The translations under genes were made by a program, and so were the position numbers. A stretch of 64,000 nt of DNA from an uncultured Bacteroidales bacterium (GTDB lineage Bacteria > Bacteroidota > Bacteroidia > Bacteroidales > G3-4614). The notes under the pieces were generated by a model. That model saw nothing but the letters and a program-made list of their open reading frames with translations. It did no database searches and was not told where the DNA came from. Shown here one piece after another: positions 23,406 to 56,605 of this stretch; position 1 is the first letter of the stretch, and the number at the start of each line of letters is the position of its first letter. The stretch spans positions 126,822 through 190,821 of the forward strand of contig CASFRS010000013.1 of the NCBI GenBank assembly GCA_949297125.1, written 5' to 3'.

Positions 23406-23435
23406 CAAATGTAATACTTTTTTCCGATTTGTCAA
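23406..23435 (-). promoter_or_regulatory. Promoter of rplU-rpmA
   Basis: Leftward TTG (23433-23435), 19-bp spacer, TACATTTG (23406-23413). A useful reference for the host promoter class, because the phage units lack the TTG. Confidence 0.8.
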
Positions 23436-23534
23436 AATTTTATTATCGCTGTTTTTCAGGTGTGCCCATGTTTCCGCCCGTTCTCCTTATGCAGGGAATG
23501 GGAAGACGCCGCTTGCAAGGCCTGTGCCACTTTT

Positions 23535-25475
23535 TTATACCGGAAGTTCGGGCTGCATCTTTGCCGGAACGTGTATTGCCTGCCGGAGGCCCGCCCCGAC
23601 ACCCTCCTGTGCGGACATCTCGCTCCTGTTTTTTTCGAGACTTTGCAACAGTTTGTCGGAGAACGGGAACGAACCGTTTTCAAGCAGCATTTCAAGCGTT
23701 ATCTGCCCCATCCGGAAGAGTTCGAGCAGGAATTCGTTCGATACGGAACGGTACACCTGCGACGATGACGACTCGGTTATGGATATGTCGAAATCGGCAT
23801 TGCATACCGCTTCCTTCGTAATGTTCTCCAACCGCTCCTCGTCGCTTGCCCCGACTATTTGCAGATATTTTTCCTTATCGAAGAACTGCTGTATGGTTTT
23901 CATCAGTTTCGTATCCCTGTCCTGACGGAAGTTCTTGTAGCTTTCAAATACGTCCACAAGGTTAAGCGAAGAGTTCTGTATCTGCTGCGCATACAGGGCA
24001 TACGATGTTCCAGGGGCTGTCCCTTTTCCCTGCATCGCCCCGTGTACGCCCGAAATGTCTTCAAAGAGTTTCATTTGCAGGTTCAGCAGTTCGTATGCCC
24101 CAACATTGGTGGCGTTCACGGCTATCTGCTGCGGCAGCGGAGAACCGGGTTTGGGGCGGAACAGTATTACGCCGTTGTAGCGCGTCCATTCGTCGGCTAC
24201 GTCCTCTATGGTCATCCCGTCAGGTATCTGGTCTTCGGGAAAGAGCAGCACTCCCTTGGCGCTTGAGCCCATTATGAAGTCGACCATGGTTATCAGGCGG
24301 TTTATATACCGCTGCTGGTCTATCACATCCTCGACAAACGAGTGTATCTCCCCGTCGACAAGGGGGTACAGTTTGAATGCATACGGATGCGAACCGTGCC
24401 AGTACGGGGTCTCGCCCTCGGCAAGTATATGGCCGAGCGGCGACAGAAAACGGTAGTACCATACCGTATCGATGAACCATTCGGTTTTTATCAACGGGAC
24501 CTGTGAAGGGGGTATGCCGTTTTTTGCCGCCTCCTTTATGCGTCTGCGGTTTTCTTTTTCTATTGCCCCGGCCGCCGGAAGTGCAGCCTTGTAACTTATG
24601 CCTTTAAGCGTATCGTGGCACTGCAGCCGTTCGCGGCTTTCGTAACGCCATACCTCTATTACGCGGCACATGTTGCCGTCGGACGGCCGGAAAAAGTCGA
24701 GGTTGTCTATTCTCTCGTCGGTTATCGTATCGTATTGCCGGGCAAAGTCCGTATCGCGGACATCGGAATATATGTTGCGCAACTCTATCGCCCTGCTGCG
24801 GTCGCCCCCGGCAAAGCGCGAAAGGAGCGTGGAGACGGGGACGTCGTGTATCTCGCCTATAAGCGTGCAGTCCCAGTGCCGCGGGTCTTCCATTACATTG
24901 AAAAAGACCCTTGCCGGGTTTACTTCATCTATCCATACGTCGGTCTTCTCCCCGCGCTTTCCGTAAAGGACCTTATGGAAACAGCTGCCCGATATGAGAA
25001 ATTCCTCGAGCGTCCTCCCGTCGAGTTCCCACACCCTGTTGTGCTGGTACACGTACTCCATTGCGCTGCTTAGAATCTCGCCGAGGGGTTGTTCCCGCCT
25101 GTCGCGCGCCACGCATACGGGCTGCGTCTGCGTGCTGCGGAACTGTCCCACCACGTTTTTTACCAGCTGCCTTATGAGGTTGTTCTTCAACGGCACTTTG
25201 CCCTGCTCCTTAAGGTACTGTTCCTCCGTAACAGTACGTCCGTCGGCAAGGGTTATGCTGTCGTTCCACTGTTTGCCGAATGTATAGTCGCGGTTGCGCG
25301 ACCTCCCCCTGCGGTGCGATTCGAGTTCTTCCCACGCACGTCGGGCCATGTCCAGCGTACCGGAGTTGTCCATTTCGATTTTCCCTTTCTCTACTTTCCC
25401 GGTTCTCCTCCGTTTTTGCGGAAGCAGCGTTGCATTGTTGAACCGCCTGTAATCGGTCCTTCTCCTTTTTTCCAT
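23535..25475 (-). CDS. Phage portal protein (P22-like)
   Basis: A 646-residue portal, the dodecameric ring through which DNA is packaged and ejected. Portal-type features are the N-terminal GKQWND segment, the long wing/stem region, DVIDQQRYINRLITMVDF, and GVHGAMQGKGTAPGTSYALYAQQ, which I associate with portals of Bacteroides and P22-like short-tailed phages. The C-terminal residues are rich in Gln/Met helices as expected for the crown. The first ATG lies in the context ACAGATATG shared with lysS and asnS, which favours it over Met35 at 25373. It is complete, isolated from terminase by 14 kb of host genes, and divergent from the 868-residue protein. Confidence 0.88.
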   Translation of the reverse strand: MEKRRRTDYRRFNNATLLPQKRRRTGKVEKGKIEMDNSGTLDMARRAWEELESHRRGRSRNRDYTFGKQWNDSITLADGRTVTEEQYLKEQGKVPLKNNLIRQLVKNVVGQFRSTQTQPVCVARDRREQPLGEILSSAMEYVYQHNRVWELDGRTLEEFLISGSCFHKVLYGKRGEKTDVWIDEVNPARVFFNVMEDPRHWDCTLIGEIHDVPVSTLLSRFAGGDRSRAIELRNIYSDVRDTDFARQYDTITDERIDNLDFFRPSDGNMCRVIEVWRYESRERLQCHDTLKGISYKAALPAAGAIEKENRRRIKEAAKNGIPPSQVPLIKTEWFIDTVWYYRFLSPLGHILAEGETPYWHGSHPYAFKLYPLVDGEIHSFVEDVIDQQRYINRLITMVDFIMGSSAKGVLLFPEDQIPDGMTIEDVADEWTRYNGVILFRPKPGSPLPQQIAVNATNVGAYELLNLQMKLFEDISGVHGAMQGKGTAPGTSYALYAQQIQNSSLNLVDVFESYKNFRQDRDTKLMKTIQQFFDKEKYLQIVGASDEERLENITKEAVCNADFDISITESSSSQVYRSVSNEFLLELFRMGQITLEMLLENGSFPFSDKLLQSLEKNRSEMSAQEGVGAGLRQAIHVPAKMQPELPV

Positions 25476-25498: not shown

Positions 25499-25541
25499 CA
25501 AATGAAACACTTTACGCAGGGCAGAATGCGGTAAATTTATA
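25499..25541 (-). promoter_or_regulatory. Putative phage-type promoter, portal
   Basis: Leftward TATAAATTTAC (25531-25541), 35 bp start to start, then TTCATTTG (25499-25506), which ends 23 nt before the ATG. No -33 TTG. Same architecture and spacing as the other phage loci. Confidence 0.5.
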
Positions 25542-25569
25542 TGTTCTCCCACCCCTCCTTTGCCGATTT

Positions 25570-25612
25570 GATATTTTTACCTGCCGGAACGCTACTCCAT
25601 GCGATATATTCG
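25570..25612 (+). promoter_or_regulatory. Putative phage-type promoter, 868-residue protein
   Basis: GATATTTTTAC (25570-25580), the weakest copy of the upstream box (8 of 11 match the portal copy), 35 bp start to start before TATATTCG (25605-25612), which ends 30 nt before the ATG. No -33 TTG. Confidence 0.4.
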
Positions 25613-25642
25613 CCCTGCATTTTCAATTTAAATTTCGTTTTT

Positions 25643-28249
25643 ATGGGAAAAGAACTGAAGGAGTTAAGGCTGGCGGGCATATCGGCTGCGCTCCCGCCGG
25701 GCGTCTCGCCCGACGGGGAGTGCTGCGACTTGGTGAACATGCGGAACGAAAACGGCGTATGGCATGTTTCGGGGTCGCCGCGGAAATTAATAGAATCGGA
25801 CAGCAGCAGAATGCAGCTTACCATGGTGCATTCAAACATGGGATACAAACATATAATCTGCTATGACGGCAAGTCGGTTTTCTGGGAGGCCGACATGAGC
25901 GGCGGCGGAGTTAAGGGGATAGGGAAAAAGATAGCCGATATAGAAAACGTTAAATCGCTCGCCCAGAACGGGAATTTCATAGTCGCCGTAACGGGATGCG
26001 AATGCAGATACCTGCTCTTTACCGACAACGATTATATTTACCTCGGGGGGTTGCATATGCCGGAACTGATGTTCAACCTGAAATATGAAGGGGATATAAA
26101 GTACGAGAACAAACTGTTTTTCTTTCCGGAAAGGGTATATAAGGACGACCTTGCGCTCTCGACAAACAACAACACTTACCTCACAGGGGTGATAAAGGCG
26201 TTGATAGACCAGGCTAAAAGCGATTTCAGAAACGACAACTGCTTTTTGCACCCCTTTCTTGTCCGCTATGCCATAAGGCTGTTCGACGGCTCGCACATAT
26301 TCCCCTCTCCGGCCATTCTGATGATGCCGATAAACAATTACGTTATCGGATACTACGAGGCTTTATTAAGCTATTCCGACAACAACACCTACGGTTCCCT
26401 TCTGTTGGGGCTGGACAAGTATTCCCTGCAGTTTTCCTGCTGCAATATACCGTTTGGAGAGTGGGACGAGATAATAGACGGGGTAGACGTTTTCATCTCC
26501 GACCAGAAGAGTTTCCTGCGGGACTCCTCCACATTTACATACTGGCTCGAGACTGCCGGCACCGACGGCGACAACTTCAGCAAGAACATATATTTCGGCT
26601 ACGATTTCCTGACTCAGGAAGAAAGAATCGCATGGGTCAGGGAAGAGTCGCTGTTTTTCAAGATAGCCTCCTACTCTCTTGCCGAACTCAGGGAGATGGA
26701 AGAAAACAACGGAGGCGCAGCCGTAAACATAAGAATCGACACCAGACTGGAGCATCTTGTCCAGCAAGAACACCTGGAGGTGGACAACTTCACGTTTTTC
26801 GACAACGGCGCAGATACTTCGTTCATATACAACTCGCACCTTCACCTCGGGGGAATATACCAATACTTTCCCAAGCCTTTTCCCTTGTACATATACGGCA
26901 TCAGGCAGGCTCTTTTCGGCGGGAATACGGGAGACACGGTTCCCGGGGGATGTTCTTGTTTCATAGATGTTACGCTCAAATGCAACGACGGGCTGAAAAA
27001 GGTTTCATCGGAAGTAAACGTTCCGGCCGGCTTCATGTTGTCGCCTTTCATTTCCTACCCCGACAGCAGGGCAACCGAAATGGAAATCAGGATGATCCGC
27101 GACGGAAAGGAAAGATGCATACATCTGCCGCTGGTTGCTTCGGATATGGAGAATTCCGCCATTTATGTAAACGAATCGTTGAAACCTCTTGCTTTCGGTG
27201 CGGAAACGGAGAGCAGCTATGTTTTTGAAGAAAAACGCGCATACGAATACTTCCCGAACAGGATAAAGGTCTCGGAAACGGACAATGTGCTGTTCTTTCC
27301 ACAGGAACAGACCTATACGGTTTCGGAGGGGAAAATACTGAAACTGGCGGCCGCTACCAAAGAAGTGTCGCAGGGACAATACGGGGAATACCCCCTTTAT
27401 GTGTTTACCGATGAGGGGATATGGGCCATGCAACAGGGCGAAGGGGATATCCTGTACGCCTCGCAACACCCTGTAAACAGAGATGTCCCGCTGTCGGGCA
27501 ATGTTATTTGCGGTATCGACAATGCGGTAGCTTACATATCGGAGCACGGACTTACTGTCCTGTCCGGTTCGGAAAGCAGGGTTATAAGCAACTCGCATGA
27601 CGGCAGAATGGAAGAGTTCGATGAAGTACAGGTTGAAGGGGAGGATTTCGATGCGGTCTGCAACAGCGATATCGCGAGAAATTTCAAAAGCTATCTGTCG
27701 GGGTCTTCAGCCGGATACGATTATGTAAACAACGAACTGCTGTTCCTGCTCGGAGGCGAAAGCTACTATTACGCCTACAACATGGCCTCCGACACATGGG
27801 GCAGGAGGATTATCGGCCACTCCCCGCTAAAGAGTTTCATCAATGTCTACCCGAATATATGGATTTGCGACGGGGCAGGGTCGGTTTTCAACCTGTCGGA
27901 CGAAGACGAAGACCAGGTAAGGCCTTTCGCCTTTATTTCAAGGAGTATCAAGGGAATTCCGTATTGCAGCAAGCAACTCAACGGGGCAGTACTGACTATC
28001 GGGAACTTTTCAGCGTCGGGGTGTTCCCTGCATCTGGAAATATCGGCCTCTGAACTTCCGGACTCGGGATTCCGGAATATCCTCGCGGCGAACATCCCGG
28101 CCTCTCCGCGCGACACATTGCGGTTTCCCGTCCATACGCGCCCGTTCAAATTTTTCCGGCTGACGGTTTATGGCAACGGTAACCGGATGTGCTGTTTCAA
28201 CAATATCTGCATGGAACTTACGCCCAAATACACCGGGAAGCTGCGCTGA
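25643..28249 (+). CDS. Large phage-like protein, possible P22 gp10-type tail/stabilisation protein
   Basis: An 868-residue protein starting MGKELKELRLAGISAALPPG. The frame is open further upstream, but the extra 34 residues look non-coding. The N-terminus has a D-x-VNMRNENGVWHVSGSPRK motif like the opening of tail-accessory proteins. The body is rich in beta strands with repeated YLYVFTDEGIWAM- and AYISEHGLTVLSG-type blades, consistent with a beta-propeller. In P22, gp10 plugs the portal and has such a fold; here the gene lies back to back with the portal. The assignment rests on context and by-eye fold only. It meets sufS tail to tail with 18 bp between stops and no visible terminator. Confidence 0.6.
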   Translation: MGKELKELRLAGISAALPPGVSPDGECCDLVNMRNENGVWHVSGSPRKLIESDSSRMQLTMVHSNMGYKHIICYDGKSVFWEADMSGGGVKGIGKKIADIENVKSLAQNGNFIVAVTGCECRYLLFTDNDYIYLGGLHMPELMFNLKYEGDIKYENKLFFFPERVYKDDLALSTNNNTYLTGVIKALIDQAKSDFRNDNCFLHPFLVRYAIRLFDGSHIFPSPAILMMPINNYVIGYYEALLSYSDNNTYGSLLLGLDKYSLQFSCCNIPFGEWDEIIDGVDVFISDQKSFLRDSSTFTYWLETAGTDGDNFSKNIYFGYDFLTQEERIAWVREESLFFKIASYSLAELREMEENNGGAAVNIRIDTRLEHLVQQEHLEVDNFTFFDNGADTSFIYNSHLHLGGIYQYFPKPFPLYIYGIRQALFGGNTGDTVPGGCSCFIDVTLKCNDGLKKVSSEVNVPAGFMLSPFISYPDSRATEMEIRMIRDGKERCIHLPLVASDMENSAIYVNESLKPLAFGAETESSYVFEEKRAYEYFPNRIKVSETDNVLFFPQEQTYTVSEGKILKLAAATKEVSQGQYGEYPLYVFTDEGIWAMQQGEGDILYASQHPVNRDVPLSGNVICGIDNAVAYISEHGLTVLSGSESRVISNSHDGRMEEFDEVQVEGEDFDAVCNSDIARNFKSYLSGSSAGYDYVNNELLFLLGGESYYYAYNMASDTWGRRIIGHSPLKSFINVYPNIWICDGAGSVFNLSDEDEDQVRPFAFISRSIKGIPYCSKQLNGAVLTIGNFSASGCSLHLEISASELPDSGFRNILAANIPASPRDTLRFPVHTRPFKFFRLTVYGNGNRMCCFNNICMELTPKYTGKLR

Positions 28250-46210: not shown

Positions 46211-46260
46211 CAGCGGAAACCGCTCTCGCCTGTACCCGTAAAAAAAGGAGGGATTTAATT

Positions 46261-46291
46261 TTGTATTTATTCCGCTTTTTACATACTTTTG
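46261..46291 (+). promoter_or_regulatory. Promoter of pheA leader
   Basis: TTG (46261-46263), 20-bp spacer, TACTTTTG (46284-46291): a full consensus Bacteroidota promoter about 29 bp before the leader-peptide ATG. Confidence 0.8.
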
Positions 46292-46319
46292 CTGCGGAAA
46301 TAATTTTATCCGAAGAAAT

Positions 46320-46403
46320 ATGAGACGTAATTCGTTCAGATTCTTTTTCTTTTTTGCATTCTTCTTTTGCAACGGGAGGAACGGGGTTTCGTATTTGTAT
46401 TGA
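46320..46403 (+). CDS. pheL: Phe-rich leader peptide of pheA attenuator
   Basis: A 27-codon reading frame beginning MRRNSF and ending SYLY, with nine Phe codons including FFFFF and FFF runs (codons 6, 8-12 and 14-16). Its stop (46401-46403) lies 23 nt before a terminator hairpin that precedes pheA. This is the classical layout of a phenylalanine attenuator: ribosome stalling at Phe codons when charged tRNA-Phe is low. The peptide itself has no expected activity. Confidence 0.85.
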   Translation: MRRNSFRFFFFFAFFFCNGRNGVSYLY

Positions 46404-46468
46404 AAAATCATGTAATGTTTAATAACGAATCCCGTTCCGGAAATTCCGAAACGGGATTCTTCTTTTTC
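46377..46468 (+). promoter_or_regulatory. Transcription attenuator of pheA
   Basis: The terminator stem is formed by CGAATCCCGTTCC (46426-46438) and the GGGATTC side (46446-46459), followed by TTCTTTTTC. The first arm can instead pair with GGAACGGGGTTTCG (46378-46391), which lies in the last third of the leader frame. A ribosome that reaches the leader stop would cover that segment and allow termination; one stalled at the Phe runs would leave it free to form the antiterminator. Confidence 0.8.
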
Positions 46469-46484
46469 AACTACAAGCATCAAG

Positions 46485-47330
46485 ATGAAAAGAGTTACTA
46501 TTCAAGGCGTAACGGGCTGCTTCCACGAAGCTGCCGCCAGGAATTATTTTAAGGGTGAAGAGATAGAGACTATTCCTTGCATGAGTTTTGCCGACCTCTT
46601 CAGCACCATGGCTAAAGAGAGCGACCTGTACGGCATTATGGCCATAGAAAACACAATAGCAGGTTCGCTGTTGCAGAACCACGAACTTCTGCGCTCAAGC
46701 GATTTGCAGATAATCGGGGAATACAAACTCAGGATTTCGCACGTCCTTGCCGTATTGCCGGGCCAGACAATGGACGATATAACGGAAGTCAACTCGCACC
46801 CCATAGCCCTTATGCAGTGCGGCGATTTCCTGAAACAGCATCCGTCGCTGAAAGTCGTCGAGAAGGACGATACGGCAGGTTCGGCAAAAGAGATTGCCGA
46901 AAAATCACTTACGGGACACGCGGCCATTTGCGGCGAACTTGCGGCGAAACTTTACGGTCTGGATATTCTGTACAAGGGAATAGAGACCAACAAAAGGAAC
47001 TCCACGCGTTTCCTTGTGCTCTGCGACGGCAACAGGATAGAAGGCGGCAGCCATATGAAAGACGTGAATAAAGCATCCCTTGTGTTGAGCCTTCCGCATA
47101 CTCACGGAAGCCTGTCGAAGATTCTCACCATATTCTCGTTCTACGATATCAATCTTACAAAAATCCAGTCCATGCCGATTATAGGGTGCGAATGGGAGTA
47201 CCGCTTCTACATCGATGTTACGTTCGACGATTACATCAGGTACAAACAGTCGCTTACGGCAATAATGCCGCTTACCAAATCGTTCAAGATACTCGGAGAA
47301 TACAAGGAGTATATCCCGGAAGAAAAATAG
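46485..47330 (+). CDS. pheA: Prephenate dehydratase
   Basis: A 281-residue monofunctional prephenate dehydratase converting prephenate to phenylpyruvate. The catalytic NSTRFLVL (TxxRF motif) is present, followed by a C-terminal ACT domain (HTHGSLSKILTIFSFYDINLTKIQS) for feedback by phenylalanine. No chorismate mutase domain. Controlled by the Phe attenuator directly upstream and ends in a strong terminator. Confidence 0.96.
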   Translation: MKRVTIQGVTGCFHEAAARNYFKGEEIETIPCMSFADLFSTMAKESDLYGIMAIENTIAGSLLQNHELLRSSDLQIIGEYKLRISHVLAVLPGQTMDDITEVNSHPIALMQCGDFLKQHPSLKVVEKDDTAGSAKEIAEKSLTGHAAICGELAAKLYGLDILYKGIETNKRNSTRFLVLCDGNRIEGGSHMKDVNKASLVLSLPHTHGSLSKILTIFSFYDINLTKIQSMPIIGCEWEYRFYIDVTFDDYIRYKQSLTAIMPLTKSFKILGEYKEYIPEEK

Positions 47331-47408: not shown

Positions 47409-47454
47409 AGGCAAGCGCATTCCGGTTTTTCCAATGCGCTTGCCTGATTTTTGT
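47409..47454 (+). terminator. Terminator of pheA
   Basis: A 13-bp stem AGGCAAGCGCATT/AATGCGCTTGCCT (47409-47421 and 47433-47445) followed by GATTTTTGT. It separates pheA from the convergent phage block. Confidence 0.85.
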
Positions 47455-47582: not shown

Positions 47583-48026
47583 TCACCGTCTTTTAAGAAC
47601 CCTTGCCGTAAAATAGATCCCCACCAGGAACATGGCCATTGCAACCGCCCCGGCAAGGAAATACCGCCAGCGGGAGAAATTCTGCTGCTCCACGACTTCG
47701 GTATATTGTCCCTTCATGTCGGCCGATGCAGTTGATACTGTCGCTTCGGTTTCCGTTTCCGCTGAAAGACGCACGGCTACATCTTTTCCCTCGGTAACGC
47801 TGCGGCGGGCGGGTATCCAGTTCCCGGCCGTGTCGGGATAATATTCGGTTACGACCCGCTCGATAATCAGCGTGTCGCGGCCGTACTTGCCCGTTTGGAC
47901 TGAGCGTTCGACATATACCGTGTCCTTTACCGCAACGGAAACATTCTGTTCCGTCCGTTTCTTTACGGCGCACGAAGAGGCGGTTGCCGTAATCAGTATA
48001 AGCTGGAGTATGACAAATGGTTTCAT
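47583..48026 (-). CDS. Lipoprotein with C-terminal membrane helix, candidate unimolecular spanin
   Basis: A 147-residue protein: an N-terminal lipoprotein signal with Cys19 in TATASSC, a central beta-rich/extended periplasmic region (about 20-118), and a C-terminal membrane helix (YFLAGAVAMAMFLVGIYF, about 122-140) with a basic tail. This topology, outer-membrane lipid at one end and inner-membrane helix at the other, is that of u-spanins such as T1 gp11 (131 residues), which fuse the membranes in the last step of host lysis. It is the final gene of the phage block, straight after the endolysin candidate. Sequence similarity to a known spanin cannot be claimed. Confidence 0.55.
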   Translation of the reverse strand: MKPFVILQLILITATASSCAVKKRTEQNVSVAVKDTVYVERSVQTGKYGRDTLIIERVVTEYYPDTAGNWIPARRSVTEGKDVAVRLSAETETEATVSTASADMKGQYTEVVEQQNFSRWRYFLAGAVAMAMFLVGIYFTARVLKRR

Positions 48027-48067
48027 TTTGCTGTTTCGTTGAATCGCGTTTATAGCTTTCCCGTGTG

Positions 48068-48499
48068 TCAGGCCGAAAAGAGTGTTACCTTTTCTCCGTT
48101 GCCGCTGTCGTACACGTCTATGTGTACCCAGCCGACCCCCTTTTCAAGCCGTATCGGCCACGGCAGCAGGACCTGCGCCTTTATTATCTCGCCGCGCACC
48201 TCGTCGGCCGTCATGCCGGAGGCGTTGAAATCCACCCCCTTGCCGAGCACGTGTGCCGAAAGGTAAGGGGCGGTCTTTTCGCGGACTATCTGACAGCGGT
48301 TGCAGCGCAACCCGCGCTGGGAATACCCGCCCCCGTCCTTCCACGTGTTGATTATCATCGGTACGCCGAGTATCTTTTCACGCAACAGGTTCAGCGTTTC
48401 GATAAGGCTGTCGTCGATGAACATCCACGCCCTGTCGCCGAACTTTTCGTAAACATGCCGGCAGACCAGCTCTTCTATTTTGAAATATTTGCTCTTCAT
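48068..48499 (-). CDS. M15-type peptidoglycan peptidase (endolysin candidate)
   Basis: A 143-residue zinc peptidase of the M15/VanY-like group. The metal-binding pattern is visible: His83 and Asp90 in SAHVLGKGVDF, and His126 in WVHIDVY. There is no signal peptide, as expected for a phage endolysin released by a holin. A good SD (AAGGAGAGACAGG) precedes the ATG. It lies between a membrane-protein gene and the spanin candidate at the end of the phage block, a lysis-cassette order. Confidence 0.8.
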   Translation of the reverse strand: MKSKYFKIEELVCRHVYEKFGDRAWMFIDDSLIETLNLLREKILGVPMIINTWKDGGGYSQRGLRCNRCQIVREKTAPYLSAHVLGKGVDFNASGMTADEVRGEIIKAQVLLPWPIRLEKGVGWVHIDVYDSGNGEKVTLFSA

Positions 48500-48514
48500 C
48501 CTGTCTCTCCTTTC

Positions 48515-49117
48515 CTACTTGTATTCGGGCAATATGTACTGTATGTTCATCGCGGCCTCGTGCAGTATCTTGTGTGCCTCTTCCTCACTGCTTTTTATCG
48601 GGCGGGTGAACTCGCAGAAGATACTCCCCACCCAATCGTAGCGGTTGTCGTTGAGCCGCTTTATTACGGCCTGCTCGCATCCGCACGACGAGAGGATTGC
48701 CTTGGCGTATTTATCTTCTACCTGTGCGTCTATATCGGTTATGTACAGGAAGAGCCTCTTGCTCAGCATGGTTGCGAAGTTGGCCACTTCGGACATCCGC
48801 AGATTGTGTATCCTCTCCCTCATCCCCTCCACTCCTTTGCGCTTTACTTCGTAGAAGACCGACAGCATACAAGCATCGCCCAAGGGGTGGGGCTGCACTA
48901 TATACACCCTGTCGGCTTTCAGCCGGTACAGCACGTTCCACAACTCGCCGAACACCACGGCGGAGTTGTAGTTCCGCCGGATGTTCTTTTCCGTCTCTTC
49001 CTGTTTGAAGCGTTCTATCTTCAAGTCGGTCAGTTTGTTCTTCGTGTACTGGTTGTATGCGAACCACGCCGCCAGTATCGTCCCTATCGCACTTATTATC
49101 GCCGCTATGTATTCCAT
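48515..49117 (-). CDS. Membrane-anchored phage-block protein (holin position)
   Basis: A 200-residue protein with one N-terminal membrane helix (YIAAIISAIGTILAAWFAYNQ, about residues 3-23) followed by a long charged helical cytoplasmic domain. AAGGAG lies 8 nt before the ATG. It lies between the tail fibre gene and the endolysin, where holins are usually encoded, but one helix plus a large soluble domain is not a classical holin. Function is inferred from position only. Confidence 0.7.
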   Translation of the reverse strand: MEYIAAIISAIGTILAAWFAYNQYTKNKLTDLKIERFKQEETEKNIRRNYNSAVVFGELWNVLYRLKADRVYIVQPHPLGDACMLSVFYEVKRKGVEGMRERIHNLRMSEVANFATMLSKRLFLYITDIDAQVEDKYAKAILSSCGCEQAVIKRLNDNRYDWVGSIFCEFTRPIKSSEEEAHKILHEAAMNIQYILPEYK

Positions 49118-49140
49118 ATTGCCGTCTCCTTTTTTTGTTG

Positions 49141-52100
49141 TCAGTATTTGGGTATAAGGGTCATTGCCACCGTTTTTGCATCATGGTCTACCTCAAGCCA
49201 CAGTTCAAAGCAGGAGAGACCGCCAGAAGAAACCCCTCGGTTACCGTATACGTCCGAACTTACCTTTGTCGGAACAAGCGTTATATCCGACCCGCCGTTG
49301 ATAGAAAATTCGCTTATGGCAGATATTTTTGCACTGAAAGTGTACGATACGCCGTTTAAGATAATCGCAGACGAATCGCTCGGACCTTTCCAGCCGGGGT
49401 TTTTGAATATTATATTCTTCTTTAAAAGGACTATGCCACTGCTGCCTTGGGGAATTTTCCCTACTTTCCACTTTGACTTTGTATCCGTTTTAAAGCATAT
49501 GGTATCAAAGTCCGCGGTAAAATCAAGAGCATAGGTATCGCCCGTTCCGTAGCTTGCATCTGTTATGGTAAGCGTACCGTCTCTTTTACCGACCGGTTTA
49601 AGTTCTCCCCATGTTATGGTGTCTGCCCCCATGCCTGTACGCTGGTATATCTCCCCTTCTGTAATCTGCCCGTTTGTGCAGAGCGGTTGTACTATAAAGG
49701 TCTGCGTTACCTGCCGCCAACCTGCCAGTACCCCCATTGCCGATGCCGCTGCCGTGGCTGCATAGTTATTCACGACAACCATGGTAAAGGTGCTGTATGC
49801 CGACAGTATGCCGCTTTGGGATGCAACGCCGGAATATATCCCGTTATCGATTGCCGCGTTTATATCTGCATCCGTGCAGATTCCGCCGTTGCCGAGCATG
49901 GTTTGTGTTACGGCTTCGCGCCAGGCACTCCACGTATATGTGGTTTCTCCGTTCTTCTTGTCGCATATGGCATGGCGCAGATACTGCTTGTTCTCGCTTC
50001 CGATACGATTTGCAAGGGTAAGGTTCTGCCCGACAATAGACCTTTCGCTGCTGTCGCTAAAGGTTATCGGTTTCGATGCCGATACAAGCAGCGTAAAGGC
50101 CACGTTTACCGTCTCGCCCGTGTTGGTAATCGGCAAATTGGATGTATGATTATTAGTTCCCTTTACAAAGTAGATGCCCTCTTCTGTAAAATCGTTAAGG
50201 TCTTTAGAATAATAAGTCATATTATCCCAATCCCATGGATAACGTATAAAATTCGTCCACTCTTTGTTTCCTAACGCCTCGGTTGTATATCCCCTGCGAT
50301 ATGCCACACCTTGTTCACCAAATCTGATTTGTACATATGTGCTGCTTGACGTTGTCGCGCTTATATACATGGTGGCTCCGTAACCGGATTTTACCACATA
50401 TATGCCAGACGTATTGTTATAGTTGAGATTATTCAAATAGCTTTCATTCTCGATAATTTGTATGGGTTTATTCAACAACTCGTTGTAATCCGAAACGCCG
50501 AAATCGAGAGTCTGCCATTCGTTCCATGACGAGGAGCTTCCCGTGTATGACCCGGTTCGGCTTTTTATCGTCCCGTCCTGCAAAAGGTATTGCATAAGAC
50601 CGCCGTTGCCTGCTGTGGAGAAGGACAACAGACCTTGTGTCAGTCCGCCGTCTGTTACTATGTAAACTCCGTTTTGATAGGACTGGCACAGACTGTCGGC
50701 TGCATCGAACGATATACTCCCTTGCAACGGCTTGTTCGACAGACTTTCGTAGTTCCCCGATGTAGCGACGGAACTAAGCGAGGGGCGATTTTTAAGGTCA
50801 TTGTAACTTCCTGATGTTGCAACTGCAGCCAAAGAGGGGCGGCCTTTAAGGTCGTTGTAGCTGCCCGATGTTGCAACCGCGGCCAATCCGTTGGAAAGGT
50901 CTGCCAATACAGTCCACTCACCCCAGCCGTCCGCATCGCGGGTGCGGTATTTCAAAACATTTTCCAAGTACAATGTCTGCCGCTGGGCGTTGTTCCCAGT
51001 ATTCTCGAATATCAGCATACCTCTTTTCGAGCCGTCTTTTACAATAAACGTCCCGGATGCAGAAACATTCCCGAGAGTATCTATCGTTTCAAGTTCTATA
51101 TCCGATATGGACGGCAGAGCTGCGGCAATAGTCGTTTCAAGAGTGTCTAACGCTTCCTTATACTCTTGCGTGAAATTCTCCTGCGTCAGCAAGCCCACCT
51201 TGCGCCACTTGTATTGGCCGTCCGCTGAATCCTTGTACGATGTGTACACACCGCGCGGGTATGGAGTATCGGCAGGGTTGAGGCATATAAAGGTTTTGCT
51301 CTCATTGTCGGCAGACGCCGTAGGCAGATTCCATACAACCTCCGCCTTTGACGTGTCGCCGCCCCAGGTGTACCAGCCTCCGCCCCTTACTGCGAGAGGC
51401 GTACCGGCATTATATGTCGCATTTCCTATTGTAGTTGTCTTTAAAGGGATAACAACAGTACCCTCGGGCAAAGATGTGCCTCCGCTCCCAGTTATGCCGT
51501 CCGGAGCTATTATATACCCGTTAAGGCTTTCCCACCGGTAACTCCCGTTATAAGCCTTGCAGATATATTTGTTGCCTGTATAAAAAGTTCCCCCGCTGTC
51601 TGCACCTCCAGCATACAGGTATATCTTACCCGCGTTGTCGGCAGATGCCGTAGGCATGGTTGCCGTGAACCTTTCCACGCTGTTTCCCGGAATACCGCTG
51701 TCCGTAAGGCTGCCTCCCGAATCGAGCCCGGCAAGGTTTCCTGCTACGGCTCCGCCCGCCTTGTCTGCCTTGCCGCTTTCCAAACTGTCTATTTCTTCGG
51801 ATAGCCGCGTCTCCTGCTCGTAAAGCAACCCGGCAAGGGTCTCGGTATCGGTTATCCCCGACAGAAAACTTTCAAGTTCTTTCCATTTGTTTATTGCCGT
51901 ATCGGTGGCATCCGCCGATGTCAGGAAATCATCCAACCGGGATACGGCACTGTTCCACGCGCTTTTCTCCGCCTGCGTTACGGCGTATCTCTTAGGGTCG
52001 CTTTCCCAAACCCATTTCTCCTGTGCCGCATCCCACTTCCAGTGCAACAGGTAACCGGCATTGTGCGGATAGAGCGTGGCCTGCGTCCACCCCTGTATCA

Positions 52101-52923
52101 AGAGCCCTCTTATGTCTGAGCCACTTACATGCCATATACCCGCCCCGCCGGCATCGTGCAGCCTGTACTCCTGCTGCCGGGCCTCGTCGGTGTATAACGC
52201 AGTACTGTCGGACGAAAGATACAGCGTCCCTTTCAAAAGTTGCGGGGACAAGGCCGTTATGGCGGCCTCACGGGCAACGGTCTCCGATGCAATAGCCTCT
52301 GCATTGGCAGCTTCGGCCGCCTCGGCTCGCGACCGCTCTGCGGAAACGGCGGCCTCACGGGCGACGGTCTCCGATGCAATAGCCTCTGCATTGGCAGCTT
52401 CGGCCGCCTTTGCCCTCGTTATTTCGGCCTGTAAGGCTGCATCCTTGGCATAGAGCGACAAATCGACATTCATCGGCACTACGCTCGTCTCCCAGTAGTC
52501 GCCGTTCCAATACAGTATGATTATGGAGGTTTTCCTGACCTCTACGCTGACGGATACGTTGCCGTTTTTGAAGTGCGTAAACGTTATGTTCCGCGGCGAC
52601 GCAGCCTCGTCATTGTCGCAATCGGCATTTTCCGCCACATAAAAATACGCCTCCTTTATCCCTACCTCCGGCGACGGCACACAGTCTGCCGGAGAATTGC
52701 CGGTCTTGTCCGTCAACATACGCTGAAGCCCGGTATCTACCCGGTTCGTATCTATCCAAACCCTGTTCACGGTGTCCCACATCCACACCGATAGGGTTTC
52801 GCCGTTGAGGAACCAGTCGCCTGCACACCCTTCCGGGTTTACGGACAACACCGGCGCAGTACCGTAGTAAAACCCCAAAAACCTTCCTTTGGCGGGGTAA
52901 TGATTGTGTCTCATATATAACAT
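49141..52923 (-). CDS. Phage tail fibre with pyocin-knob modules
   Basis: A protein of about 1,260 residues. The N-terminus (HYPAKGRFLGFYYGTAPVLS) looks like the particle-attachment part, followed by an Ala/Glu-rich coiled-coil with two near-identical 29-residue repeats. The middle and C-terminal parts carry at least four knob-like beta modules (GTFIVKDG, GVYIVTDG, GIYVVKSG and GIYFVKG openings) joined by three 18-residue linkers of the type AVATSGSYNDLKGRPSL. Such modules bind cell-surface polysaccharide. ATG 52923 is chosen in the AACAGATG context; 52914 is nearly as likely. Longest gene of the phage block. Confidence 0.85.
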   Translation of the reverse strand: MLYMRHNHYPAKGRFLGFYYGTAPVLSVNPEGCAGDWFLNGETLSVWMWDTVNRVWIDTNRVDTGLQRMLTDKTGNSPADCVPSPEVGIKEAYFYVAENADCDNDEAASPRNITFTHFKNGNVSVSVEVRKTSIIILYWNGDYWETSVVPMNVDLSLYAKDAALQAEITRAKAAEAANAEAIASETVAREAAVSAERSRAEAAEAANAEAIASETVAREAAITALSPQLLKGTLYLSSDSTALYTDEARQQEYRLHDAGGAGIWHVSGSDIRGLLIQGWTQATLYPHNAGYLLHWKWDAAQEKWVWESDPKRYAVTQAEKSAWNSAVSRLDDFLTSADATDTAINKWKELESFLSGITDTETLAGLLYEQETRLSEEIDSLESGKADKAGGAVAGNLAGLDSGGSLTDSGIPGNSVERFTATMPTASADNAGKIYLYAGGADSGGTFYTGNKYICKAYNGSYRWESLNGYIIAPDGITGSGGTSLPEGTVVIPLKTTTIGNATYNAGTPLAVRGGGWYTWGGDTSKAEVVWNLPTASADNESKTFICLNPADTPYPRGVYTSYKDSADGQYKWRKVGLLTQENFTQEYKEALDTLETTIAAALPSISDIELETIDTLGNVSASGTFIVKDGSKRGMLIFENTGNNAQRQTLYLENVLKYRTRDADGWGEWTVLADLSNGLAAVATSGSYNDLKGRPSLAAVATSGSYNDLKNRPSLSSVATSGNYESLSNKPLQGSISFDAADSLCQSYQNGVYIVTDGGLTQGLLSFSTAGNGGLMQYLLQDGTIKSRTGSYTGSSSSWNEWQTLDFGVSDYNELLNKPIQIIENESYLNNLNYNNTSGIYVVKSGYGATMYISATTSSSTYVQIRFGEQGVAYRRGYTTEALGNKEWTNFIRYPWDWDNMTYYSKDLNDFTEEGIYFVKGTNNHTSNLPITNTGETVNVAFTLLVSASKPITFSDSSERSIVGQNLTLANRIGSENKQYLRHAICDKKNGETTYTWSAWREAVTQTMLGNGGICTDADINAAIDNGIYSGVASQSGILSAYSTFTMVVVNNYAATAAASAMGVLAGWRQVTQTFIVQPLCTNGQITEGEIYQRTGMGADTITWGELKPVGKRDGTLTITDASYGTGDTYALDFTADFDTICFKTDTKSKWKVGKIPQGSSGIVLLKKNIIFKNPGWKGPSDSSAIILNGVSYTFSAKISAISEFSINGGSDITLVPTKVSSDVYGNRGVSSGGLSCFELWLEVDHDAKTVAMTLIPKY
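50727..50888 (-). repeat. Three 54-bp tandem repeats in tail fibre gene
   Basis: Three in-frame copies of an 18-residue unit (AVATSGSYNDLKGRPSL, AVATSGSYNDLKNRPSL and a diverged third copy). They connect knob modules. Copy number could vary between strains. Confidence 0.75.
52261..52409 (-). repeat. 87-bp-period repeat in tail fibre coiled coil
   Basis: Segments 52261-52322 and 52348-52409 (62 bp each) are identical except for one base, with an 87-bp offset, so the unit is 29 residues. It encodes AEAANAEAIASETVAREAA-type heptads. Near identity at the DNA level implies a recent duplication or ongoing exchange. Confidence 0.85.
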
Positions 52924-52942
52924 CTGTTTTTTCGTTAATAAT

Positions 52943-53572
52943 TTATTGTACAACTACCCGCCGGTTCATTACGGAAGCGCGTTCATGCTCTCCCGTTATT
53001 TCGTATACCAGCGCCGCCGCACAATATGTAACCGACGGGAGCAGAACTTCATTTATTTCGACAGGGCCGGAAAAATCGGGCAACCTGACGTAAAGAGCCT
53101 CTTCTATTTTATGGTTGCGCACTTCGGGCGGCAACGAATAGTAGCGCAGTACCCTGTTCCCCGCACTGCCGTGCGTGATTACCGCAACGGGTTTCGATAC
53201 GCCGCCCATGGAATATATATTGTTCTGCAACTCCGCAGCCGGATGGTTTTCATCTATAAACCGCGAAACCGGACGCTCCCAGCCTTGCATGCGGAACAAC
53301 GTCATTTTCAACAGGTCGGATGGAAGCAGCACTTCGCCGCTGCCGTTCTGAAAACGTTTAAGCACCGCCCCGGGACGCATATCCGTTTGTTCGAGCAAAT
53401 AGGAGGGTGCTGCCATAAAGACTTTTACGACAGCCTCCGGAATCTTCTCCCTTATATAAAAATCTATTCCAACCGAGTCGACTTCGGGTAAAGTGGCGGA
53501 GCCGCAAGCCGGGCTGCTCTCCTCCATGTTTATCTTTACCAGTTCTGCAAGTGTATCCAAACTGTATTTCAT
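52943..53572 (-). CDS. Phage-block structural protein, possible head-tail adaptor
   Basis: A 209-residue protein with no signal peptide, beginning MKYSLDTLAELVKINMEES. The C-terminal part (LLPSVTYCAAALVYEITGEHERASVMNRR) is helical. In similar phage blocks the slot between capsid and tail fibre is held by head-completion or adaptor proteins; that is the only basis for this call. The stop lies 20 bp before the chosen tail fibre start. SD GGAG precedes the ATG. Confidence 0.65.
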   Translation of the reverse strand: MKYSLDTLAELVKINMEESSPACGSATLPEVDSVGIDFYIREKIPEAVVKVFMAAPSYLLEQTDMRPGAVLKRFQNGSGEVLLPSDLLKMTLFRMQGWERPVSRFIDENHPAAELQNNIYSMGGVSKPVAVITHGSAGNRVLRYYSLPPEVRNHKIEEALYVRLPDFSGPVEINEVLLPSVTYCAAALVYEITGEHERASVMNRRVVVQ

Positions 53573-53583
53573 ATCCAGACTCC

Positions 53584-53979
53584 TTATTCTGCCACGTTAG
53601 GAAAACTCAACCCGCACGATTGCGCGGCTTTTTTTATTTTTCCGGGGGTGGAAAGCTGCCGCAGCGGTATGCCGTAAGGTTCTGCTTTCAGCAGTTCTTT
53701 TGCCTGCTGCCATGTAGTTACGTTTTTTATTTCGGTATATACCGCCTGCTCGGGTTCGCCTTTATTTTCGGATTCATCCGACAATGAGAATTTGCTGCCG
53801 AACCCCCTGTCGTTCTCCAATGCTGCCTGCAAGAGCGCGTCGGAAGTAGTGAAGAATCCTTCTTTGTTGTCGCCCGACACGAATTTTACTCTCGCAGCCT
53901 TGCCGTTTATCAGGACATAAGTATTGAGGTTTCCCCTCGTAGTCCTGTATTTTTTCACTTTTCCGGTTTTATCTTCCAT
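53584..53979 (-). CDS. Small phage-block protein of unknown function
   Basis: A 131-residue protein: a basic beta-rich N-terminal half (KKYRTTRGNLNTYVLINGKAA; FFTTSDALLQAAL) and a C-terminal region (AKELLKAEPYGIPLRQLSTPGKIKKAAQSCGLSF) that resembles a small helical DNA- or protein-binding domain. It follows the capsid gene after a GC-rich hairpin. Possibly a head-decoration or completion protein by position; not recognised by sequence. Confidence 0.65.
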   Translation of the reverse strand: MEDKTGKVKKYRTTRGNLNTYVLINGKAARVKFVSGDNKEGFFTTSDALLQAALENDRGFGSKFSLSDESENKGEPEQAVYTEIKNVTTWQQAKELLKAEPYGIPLRQLSTPGKIKKAAQSCGLSFPNVAE

Positions 53980-53994
53980 ATCATGCTACATTAT

Positions 53995-54033
53995 CATAAA
54001 ATAATAAGGGCGGCAGCGGCGCCGCTGCCGCCC
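53995..54033 (-). terminator. Terminator-like palindrome after capsid gene
   Basis: A perfect 26-bp GC-rich palindrome (54008-54033) followed on the minus strand by TTATTATTTTATG. It lies 28 bp past the capsid stop and within the phage transcription unit, so it may act as a partial terminator that keeps capsid mRNA in excess, or protect its 3' end. Confidence 0.65.
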
Positions 54034-54061
54034 GAAGTGTTCCCTGTAAGACTGCCGCGCG

Positions 54062-55447
54062 CTACTGCTTGGGAACTATACGCATGTGCGCCGCCGGATA
54101 TCGGAGCGTAAGGCAGCTCGCTTCGGTCATTACAACCGCATCGGTATTACGGATACCTGCACTCTTCAAATCGAGTTTCTGGTGTCCGAACGGGACATGC
54201 GCCCACCTTGTTACGAACTCGGGGTCGAATACGAACCCGTAATCGCTCATGCCGCAATCATCGAATACCTCCGAGTAGAGGACATAGAATTTCCCGAACT
54301 TCGAGCGTATCTCGGAGAAATCTATACCCCATTTTACATACTCGTCATCGGCCGCAATAACCTTCGTTACTTCCAGCTTATTTATGCGCCCGATAAAATC
54401 GCTGCCGCCTATGAGCACCTTGCGTTTGTTCCCTCCGTTTCCGGTAAATGCCTCTTTCATTATATCGATAAGGTCATCCTGCGTGAGCTCTTTTGCCGGA
54501 TCGAACTCGTACTCCTTGCCTGCCTGCCACCAGATTCCGCCGGTCAGCAACACGTTCTCCTTCTTGCGCGAGTCGTACAGCGTACGCTTTACTCCGAACA
54601 TGAACGTCTTTTCCATACCAAGGCGCATATCGTATATGGCAGCCTCCTCCGAGTCGGAAAAATCCCACTGCACCTCTTTGGCGGCAATTTTCTGGAACGT
54701 AGACTGCTCTACCTGTATCTTGAATATCTGGCAGTTGTTCTGTTCCTTAACCGGCAATGCCTCGAACTGCGCCGTCTGGACATCCAGTTCGGTTGCCGCA
54801 CGCCCCATTCTGATAAGCGTTGCAGAACCCGGTATGGAGGGGACGCAGTTTTCTACGCTCCCTATCTTCTTCCCGTTTATTGCATACACGTTAAGGGTTC
54901 CGTTCTCTTCCTTGCTCGTAATGTAGAGGACAAGGTCGGACTTGGACCGGGTGGTCCCGTCGGGTTCGTACCCTTTTATACCCTGGACAAGGATGGTTTC
55001 GGATACCTCGAAAATATCGTTGTTGGAGGTATCGAGAGTCGCCTTCTGCGCCGCCGTGGTTGCATTGCCCGATTCGGGCTCGGTATAGGCCTTGCTCATG
55101 GTGGCTTTTGTCGGCTTTATATCTACCGAATAGTAATCGACCACCATAGAGTTTGCTTTTCTCGCCCCGGCCCAGCGCGACAACTGGTCTATGGGTGTGG
55201 ACATGGGGCGTATTTTGGTTATTCTGTCGTCAATCTCGTTCTTGATCAGGCCGTCGCTCTCGCGTAAAGCCAAATCGCGCGTAAGGGGTTCGCCCGATAT
55301 AATCTTGCCTCCGCCGGCCGCAGGTATTACGGCAGCCATTGCGCACGAGGCTTCGCATGAGACGAAACTCAACAATATGGCGATGACAACCAGCGACAAT
55401 ATTATCAAAACGGGATTCTCCTTTATATACTTTACAATTCCATTCAT
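54062..55447 (-). CDS. Phage major capsid protein with N-terminal membrane segment
   Basis: A 461-residue capsid protein that I place with HK97-fold coats of the SU10/DUF5309 type. The C-terminal two-thirds has MRLGMEKTFMFGVKRTLYD, LIGGSDFIGRINKLE, SKFGKFYVLYSEVFDDCGM, a RWAHVPFGHQ loop and the final LTLRYPAAHMRIV. The first 36 residues are odd: MNGIVKYIKENPVL then a strongly hydrophobic helix, followed by Ala/Gly-rich sequence. An internal Met37 start (55339) is possible but has no SD. The gene is complete, 71 bp downstream of the scaffold gene. Confidence 0.75.
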   Translation of the reverse strand: MNGIVKYIKENPVLIILSLVVIAILLSFVSCEASCAMAAVIPAAGGGKIISGEPLTRDLALRESDGLIKNEIDDRITKIRPMSTPIDQLSRWAGARKANSMVVDYYSVDIKPTKATMSKAYTEPESGNATTAAQKATLDTSNNDIFEVSETILVQGIKGYEPDGTTRSKSDLVLYITSKEENGTLNVYAINGKKIGSVENCVPSIPGSATLIRMGRAATELDVQTAQFEALPVKEQNNCQIFKIQVEQSTFQKIAAKEVQWDFSDSEEAAIYDMRLGMEKTFMFGVKRTLYDSRKKENVLLTGGIWWQAGKEYEFDPAKELTQDDLIDIMKEAFTGNGGNKRKVLIGGSDFIGRINKLEVTKVIAADDEYVKWGIDFSEIRSKFGKFYVLYSEVFDDCGMSDYGFVFDPEFVTRWAHVPFGHQKLDLKSAGIRNTDAVVMTEASCLTLRYPAAHMRIVPKQ

Positions 55448-55518
55448 AACTCTGACTTGTTTTTATTGTTTGCTAATCTGTTTTTGCTGATGTGAATTTT
55501 GTCGGGACAGATGCGCCA

Positions 55519-56310
55519 TTACATGTCCCAAACGCTTTTACGCCGGCGCAGGCCGAATATCGGCGTCAGGTTGGACGTATCCGACCCGCCTCGCGAGGCA
55601 GCCCCTTTCAATCCGGGGACATTGTCGCCTTCGTCCTTCTCCCTGTCGAACATTATCCTCATGTTGCGCCCCTTAACCTCGCCGGCTTCCTGTGCGGAGT
55701 CAATATCTTCATCGTAGTTGATTCCTTTATACAGCGTATCGAGAAGCTCGTACGTAAATTCGCTCATGAATACCTGCTCGCATATACGGCAAACCTTGCT
55801 CAGGAAGATTTCAAAATCCCCTTCGCTCATACCCTTGCTCTCCTTGAAACGCTCGATGGCCGTTTCGCTGCGTTTCCAGTTTTCATTTATCTCTTTTTCC
55901 GTTTCGCGCACCCTGTTCATGCGGGCAAGATATTCATCGTTCTCCTTGCGTATTTCCGCCATGCGCCTTTCGTCTCCGGCACATTCGAGCATATCTTTCC
56001 CGAAATAGCGGACACATGCGATAAGGGGGTCTTCTCCCTCGACCACATCCGATATGAAGCCGCCCATTTTAGGGTTCGACATAAACAGCGAAGCCAAAGA
56101 ACTCTGGTCCTTGCGCAGTTTGTCGTACTTTTCGTCCAGTTTGGCATCGTACTCTGCCAGGATATCGAACAGTTCCTCGTCCGTATCGAAAGACCTCTCG
56201 GGAAATAGCCTGGTCAGCCTCTTGATGACAATCTGACGCGAAGGCAACCCGTAACGCTTGTTTTCATTCTCATAATACCCTTTCATAAATAAAGATTTTA
56301 AATTAGACAT
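55519..56310 (-). CDS. Phage scaffolding-type protein
   Basis: A 263-residue, charged, mainly alpha-helical protein (coiled-coil stretches such as [16 protein letters not shown] and [16 protein letters not shown]) ending in a basic [10 protein letters not shown] tail. Immediate position upstream of the capsid gene, helical content and basic C-terminus fit a scaffolding protein, which shapes the procapsid and binds coat through its C-terminus in P22-like phages. The ATG at 56310 (MSNLKSLF) is chosen; the longer frame runs through the promoter region. First gene of the eight-gene block. Confidence 0.7.
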
Positions 56311-56340
56311 ATTGCCATACCGTATGGTGTTTCTACTCCG

Positions 56341-56383
56341 CAAAGAAAATACGGCAGAAAGGGGGCGGCGTGTTATATTTATA
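56341..56383 (-). promoter_or_regulatory. Putative phage-type promoter, scaffold/capsid block
   Basis: Leftward TATAAATATAA (56373-56383), 35 bp start to start, then TTTCTTTG (56341-56348), which ends 30 nt before the scaffold ATG. No -33 TTG. Preceding the TATAAAT box is CTCTTTT, also present at the terminase copy, giving a 14-bp identity between the two loci. Confidence 0.5.
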
Positions 56384-56415
56384 AAAAGAGTAGGACGGAT
56401 AAGAAATATATTTAC

Positions 56416-56423
56416 TACCTTTG
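56416..56423 (+). promoter_or_regulatory. -7 box of fumarase gene
   Basis: TACCTTTG, a full -7 consensus, about 180 bp before the fumarase ATG; no -33 TTG at normal spacing. It lies back to back with the phage-block promoter. Confidence 0.55.
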
Positions 56424-56605
56424 CTGTAAGAGACAAGGGGGTGTCGTGCGGTCGGGTACAACCCGGCCTGCAAGGCCCGGGGACGGCATTTCCAGCCTTC
56501 CCGCTGCCCTGCATCGGAACAGGGCAGGATGTGCGTCATGCCGGTTTTATCGGGGAGACCCGAAGGAGAAGAGAATACCAACAAACCATCAAAAAAATAA
56601 AAGTT

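Follow-up and report, generated by a model that had tools for sequence, protein, structure and literature searches.

The phenylalanine-rich leader upstream of pheA in this Bacteroidales genome is very probably a ribosome-mediated transcription attenuator that responds to charged tRNA-Phe and that descends from the leader of an operon, with codons for both phenylalanine (Phe) and tyrosine (Tyr). The new part of this finding is evolutionary: pheA left the operon, and its leader became Phe-only. Attenuation by leader peptides is a classical mechanism, and attenuation itself was already known, Bacteroidota included. The reading draws on the observed anatomy of the locus, its conservation, the covariation of its alternative stems, its homology with the mixed leaders, and an association between the codons that leaders contain and the genes that they precede.

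The element lies in a window of 64,000 nucleotides, which is the whole stretch of DNA that was analysed (Table 1). A preliminary description of this DNA had proposed a consensus promoter, a 27-codon leader with nine Phe codons, alternative pairing segments and an intrinsic terminator ahead of pheA. Each of these is present, with the ends of the pairing segments shifted by one or two bases at most.

Table 1. Features of the pheA leader locus, in window positions.
Feature	Positions	Strand	Remarks
Promoter, Bacteroidota type	46260-46291	+	Exact pattern match to the Bacteroidota consensus
Segment 1, leader start region	46316-46337	+	Can pair with the A arm; putative protector, from the fold
Leader peptide gene	46320-46403	+	27 codons; product MRRNSFRFFFFFAFFFCNGRNGVSYLY; nine Phe
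Stall segment (putative)	46335-46367	+	Phe at 9 of 11 codons, no Tyr; 33/33 bases identical in sister species G003
A arm, antiterminator 5′ half	46377-46390	+	Inside the leader gene; pairs with the B arm
B arm	46427-46441	+	Common to antiterminator and terminator
Intrinsic terminator	46427-46469	+	Hairpin 46427-46459, -19.9 kcal/mol; T-rich tail 46460-46469
pheA, prephenate dehydratase	46485-47330	+	281 aa; Pfam PF00800, E 2.2e-53
Terminator-like hairpin 3′ of pheA	47410-47449	+	47410-47421 with 47433-47444, 12 perfect pairs, then T-rich

The promoter has the layout TTTG-N20-TANNTTTG, with TTTG at 46260-46263, a 20-nucleotide spacer and TACTTTTG at 46284-46291, as in the full consensus for Bacteroidota. 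The match alone is weak evidence, because the window contains two exact matches where 0.55 would be expected by chance; the other is at 23406-23436 on the reverse strand. A similar promoter occupies the same position in the alignment with the sister species (G003). The scan of the locus for promoters of the E. coli type gave no match, as expected for a host that belongs to the Bacteroidota. A TAnnTTTG box is also given in PMC9723704. The terminator hairpin ends about 25 bases, and its tail about 15 bases, before the pheA ATG. Since the second hairpin follows pheA and the next genes lie on the opposite strand, pheA is probably transcribed alone.

The Phe run and the pairings were compared with chance. 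The largest number of Phe residues per 11 codons in any short ATG reading frame is seven in 2000 dinucleotide shuffles of 46211-46484, compared with nine observed, and the run is matched in 0/2000. When short ATG reading frames on both strands are searched for runs of 12 residue classes, this is the sole leader-plus-terminator in the window. The entire leader RNA has a folding z of -3.7, and the A:B duplex (-19.8 kcal/mol) is better than those of 200 shuffles (p 0.005). A:B and the terminator are mutually exclusive, because both need the B arm. Segment 1 pairs with the A arm at -18.1 kcal/mol, more strongly than in all swaps (-19.9 kcal/mol in the sister species); across the order this pairing shows a weak trend, with a rank below 0.05 in 24 of 103 leaders, and protector pairing as an order-wide feature is not supported beyond that trend.

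In the proposed switch, the polymerase would start near 46298 and a ribosome would translate the leader behind it. When phenylalanine is plentiful, the ribosome would pass the Phe codons and the A arm, B would be left to its 3′ partner C, and the resulting B:C pairing, the terminator, would end transcription ahead of pheA. When phenylalanine is scarce, the ribosome would stall within the stall segment and leave open the A arm, which starts about ten bases past the run; the open A would capture newly made B, the terminator would be blocked, and pheA would be transcribed. If the leader is not translated, its start would pair with A and the terminator would form. We infer this stalling, its kinetics and the response of the leader to the amino acid. 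Folded with the RNA blocked to 46367 and ending at 46442, just past B, A:B is the best structure; with the RNA blocked to 46416, as by a ribosome on the stop codon, the terminator alone remains; with no ribosome, the fold contains both the terminator and a pairing of the leader start with A. For the complete leader with a stalled ribosome, the best fold at equilibrium is still the terminator, so antitermination must be kinetic, with the antiterminator made first. A ribosome on the stop codon would, by its presumed footprint, cover just the last few bases of A, so that protector pairing or the passage of the ribosome must contribute to termination.

Alternatively, the element could act mainly on the translation of pheA, with the hairpin hiding the start region, or the leader peptide could act in trans. 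The short distance from the hairpin and tail to the ATG is compatible with control of translation, which we nevertheless consider highly improbable, as we do a peptide in trans: the hairpin runs into a T-rich tail, and leader, hairpin and tail keep their order in 102 of 134 pheA upstream regions from across Bacteroidales. The leader gene is identical at 75 of 84 bases between the window's genome (G000) and the sister species, with one synonymous difference in leader codons 6-27, compared with 105 in the 281 codons of pheA (P 4.8e-4). So few synonymous differences indicate that the RNA itself is constrained, which speaks against a function of the peptide and is consistent with the attenuator; some role in trans may nevertheless exist.

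The distribution of such leaders was determined in two sets of loci. A first search of 41 genomes gave a pheA match in 23; the order-wide sample comprises 295 genomes, with a pheA match in 139 and an aroF match in 276. The upstream region was read for 134 of the 139, leaving out G013, G120 and G288, where contigs end, and G052 and G176. An automatic rule required a short reading frame in which five or more of ten residues are Phe or Tyr, followed by a terminator. It called 102 of the 134 regions, compared with one in the reverse complement, zero in shuffled sequence (mean of five rounds) and one in the region 300-600 bases upstream. The 32 uncalled regions were inspected by eye. They include that of the sister species, in which the leader is plain and the terminator failed the rule, and 21 that were classed as operons, 18 of which show such a reading frame, begun by ATG or GTG and in every case containing Tyr. 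The second set consists of 80 named loci from species genomes, to which the rule was applied with no terminator required; it found a leader in 70, every one with Tyr, and none in the other ten, some of which have little upstream sequence. Judged by the strict screen of sequences (102/134), attenuators appear to be the rule for pheA in Bacteroidales and not the exception. The preliminary description had called such leaders less widely documented in Bacteroidota; the kind of element that it named is supported, with the amendment that such attenuators are common in Bacteroidales.

The A arm starts 7-14 bases after the Phe/Tyr run (10-90% range, median 10, 103 loci), while its distance to the stop codon is variable, as would be expected if stalling within the run is what matters. 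In the window leader, too, the run is followed by A, B and then C, with A starting 9 bases past the run; it departs from the combination of Phe and Tyr that characterizes the group, since its 10-residue segment holds eight Phe and no Tyr. It is a specialised descendant, and an atypical member, of the Bacteroidales Phe/Tyr leaders of pheA.

The pairing of the two stems was evaluated in 103 leaders, which are the 102 called plus that of the sister species. The mean A:B energy is -13.6 kcal/mol, compared with -8.7 kcal/mol for A combined with the B of a different locus, and A:B is better than in shuffled sequence (p<=0.05) in 88 of the 103; it is no better in G251 (p 0.24) and marginal in G044 (0.055) and G221 (0.09). 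Covariation was assessed in 101 loci of fixed register, at the most variable inner column and with mismatches counted. A:B is paired at that column in 80 of the 101 (mean 37.8 and maximum 52 when the letters are shuffled) and B:C in 98 (mean 41.4, maximum 53), where the register, taken from the predicted duplex, somewhat favours pairing and the shuffles ignore relatedness. In a tally of the paired positions only, the triples at the variable column include all four Watson-Crick kinds. Both alternative stems, as predicted from the sequences, covary across the 101 loci. The comparison of pheA upstream regions in relatives, which had been proposed as a check, thus finds the Phe/Tyr run kept and the stems covarying, and it supports the original reading of the element as a Phe-responsive leader-peptide attenuator.

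These comparisons also bear on whether the structure might be just an intrinsic terminator, or else an RNA sensor such as a T-box or riboswitch, with a fortuitous reading frame. The terminator is indeed strong. We give this explanation almost no weight, because neither the window nor 11 related loci score at cut-off for any Rfam family, T-box included, a further conserved sensor fold was not observed, the Phe/Tyr run is kept order-wide, and the A arm lies at a fixed distance from it. The best permissive Rfam match, a plasmid antisense RNA (30.3 bits, cut-off 45), was dismissed; most of its alignment falls on the terminator hairpin.

Elsewhere in Bacteroidales, pheA heads the operon pheA-aminotransferase-aroF-tyrA, whose gene names we take mainly from similarity to the operon of B. 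fragilis; aroF is a DAHP synthase, presumably with a chorismate mutase. The 134 regions were classed by gene content, as 15 with a stand-alone pheA, 116 operons (including the doubtful G062, which has the aminotransferase) and three unclear (G152, G167, G175). In seven of the stand-alone genomes pheA lacks a leader (G004, G007, G108, G295, G238, G165, G075). Among the eight stand-alone leaders, six have a Tyr-free stall segment (G000, G003, G025, G044, G221, G280) and two have one Tyr each (G099, G251). Among the 95 called operon leaders, none is Tyr-free and two have a single Tyr. The difference (6/8 compared with 0/95) gives a Fisher P of 2e-8, and counting by family (3/4 compared with 0/43) gives P 2.5e-4. 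Family f19 contains both kinds: the segment is Tyr-free in the split genome G025, and it holds 4 Tyr in G129 and 5 in G210, which are operon members. The tyrA or aroF operons of split genomes carry mixed leaders in G025, G044, G099, G251, G238, G295 and G108; in G280 no leader is seen in the 168 bases that the contig has ahead of tyrA, in G221 tyrA was not found, and the reciprocal comparison leaves out G165 and G075. Mixed leaders also occur on operons with aroF and no tyrA nearby, for example in Alistipes, which fits an aroF that serves both amino acids.

If the Phe-only run of an otherwise classical attenuator were a product of drift or composition, then codon content would be uninformative about gene content. 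Just four families combine a stand-alone pheA with a leader, one Tyr persists in two of the eight leaders, and T-rich DNA favours Phe codons, all of which leave some room for such an account; it is unlikely, given that Tyr is present in every one of the 95 called operon leaders and of the 70 named loci with a leader, that the contrast recurs within family f19, and that the other half of split genomes retains Tyr. The more probable course is that, when the aromatic operon broke up, the attenuator was copied and the copies specialised, the one at pheA alone losing Tyr and the one at the aminotransferase, aroF and tyrA keeping both amino acids. This likely happened several times independently, in which case the codons of a leader would report the end products that it serves, and the element would have been re-tuned in nature by few codon changes. 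Here the splitting of an operon coincides with the loss of codons for an end product to which the detached gene does not lead, a natural experiment that provides comparative evidence, independent of any assay, on what leaders sense. The predicted responses can be tested in laboratory Bacteroides.

In the window's genus, pheA and the aminotransferase-aroF-tyrA operon lie on different contigs. The latter operon has a mixed leader and a terminator in all seven genomes read (of eight in the genus; G006 was left out), the leader in the window's genome being MIKNISVFAYFYYYFYFSKK. A pheA with a Phe-only leader occurs in the window's genome and the sister species. The other six of the seven congeners (G001, G002, G004-G007; loci L003-L008) show no leader upstream of pheA, which in them lies directly behind a gene that we take by eye to be truA (a full reading frame in two, similar sequence in all six), so that the DNA upstream of pheA is not orthologous there. 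Five of these (G001, G002, G004, G005, G007), all that were read, keep the mixed leader on the aminotransferase operon. The preliminary description had held that loss of the leader in close relatives would count against it; the leader is indeed absent from six of seven congeners and kept in the sister species, which tells in part against the description. The trees of pheA and of three operon proteins agree in placing the window's genome and the sister species together, sister to the rest, which indicates that pheA was inherited vertically. In the leaderless group the pheA leader may have been lost, or the operon may have split twice.

An alignment of the Phe-only leader with ordinary mixed leaders extends all the way from the promoter, through the run, A, B and C, to the end of the terminator, with the highest score (z 14) against G130. 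In the alignment with G211, TTTTTTTACTTTTACTTTAGC stands opposite TTTTTTGCATTCTTCTTTTGC, two Tyr codons being replaced by Ala and Phe. Because the alignment extends over the full length, an origin as a de novo reading frame was rejected; the leader would instead descend from a mixed Phe/Tyr operon leader, whose Tyr codons would have been lost once pheA had left the operon. Its similarity to the present aminotransferase leader is clear in the sister species (reached by 0/500 shuffles) and weak in the window's genome (9/500), and a direct copy of that present leader is less well supported.

Phage genes lie downstream of pheA. A prophage was rejected as the cause of the split, since every one of the seven genus members with a strong aroF match has pheA and aroF at separate places, those with pheA behind truA included, and capsid and portal genes are present in all eight members. 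In 18 searched genomes of other families the capsid gene was found in none. In the window, phage structural genes are scattered at 7635-9620 (-), 23538-25475 (-), 25541-28246 (+) and 47586-56514 (-) among what, named by eye, are presumably housekeeping genes; they include a terminase (PHROG 2), a P22-like portal (PF16510), an SU10-like capsid (PF17236), and endolysin-like and tail-fibre-like genes. The spacing of portal, pheA and capsid is nearly the same in the sister species. The set resembles a domesticated phage shared by the genus, and it may be a gene transfer agent.

Two further arrangements were observed. Two Phe/Tyr leaders stand in series before the aromatic operon in L023, L088, L091, L176 (G175), L281 (G251) and L284 (G099), and also upstream in G064, G071, G090 and G231; in several cases a terminator-like hairpin follows each leader, and these are possible tandem attenuators. 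In three genomes of one family (L163, L164 and L166, from G280, G221 and G044), a stand-alone pheA with a Phe-only leader is followed, at about 200-300 bases, by apparent branched-chain amino acid genes; by eye we take them to be ilvD and, if the contig extends far enough, ilvB and ilvN as well.

In the open-access literature searched, which leaves out most subscription papers, nothing was recognised on Phe or Phe/Tyr leaders of Bacteroidales, and specialisation after operon splitting was not found. A relevant comparative study by Lopatovskaya from 2010, cited in PMC4833913, may already hold such a prediction. The Bacteroid-trp motif (RF01692), which judging from its name presumably concerns trp genes, has no match at cut-off in the window. 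It is a candidate cis-regulatory RNA of Bacteroidetes according to PMC2864571, which also tabulates a Leu/phe leader of Lactococcus lactis (RF01743); the latter, by its name a Leu or Phe leader, belongs to another phylum and matches neither the window nor the related loci. According to PMC2965389 (Naville and Gautheret, 2010), leader-peptide attenuation had, to its authors' knowledge, been demonstrated only in Proteobacteria and Actinobacteria until they described a case in Firmicutes. Leader-like short reading frames in B. thetaiotaomicron are mentioned in PMC7366714. An expressed, structured 5′ element with no Rfam match lies upstream of pheA in Flavobacterium psychrophilum and is conserved in Flavobacteriaceae, according to the available sections of PMC9723704, which also report clues to leader-peptide attenuation ahead of amino acid operons in Bacteroidota. 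That element is likewise from Bacteroidota; those sections give neither a leader sequence nor codon content for it and do not compare operons.

The present work adds a family of Phe/Tyr leaders that spans most of Bacteroidales, has no Rfam match, and has two strongly covarying stems. The pheL-pheA attenuator of enterobacteria (Phe_leader, RF01859) resembles the window leader in its Phe-rich leader peptide, in an antiterminator that overlaps the leader, and in a terminator before pheA. Attenuation by pheL follows the same logic as is proposed here. The two do not match in sequence or structure (15.7 bits, cut-off 55); pheL-pheA belongs to a different phylum, while the window leader derives from a mixed Phe/Tyr leader. 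Another close counterpart is the Bacteroidales mixed leader, which has the same layout, with homology that spans the promoter, the run and all three of A, B and C, and which, unlike the leader in the window, has codons for two amino acids and heads an operon of four genes.
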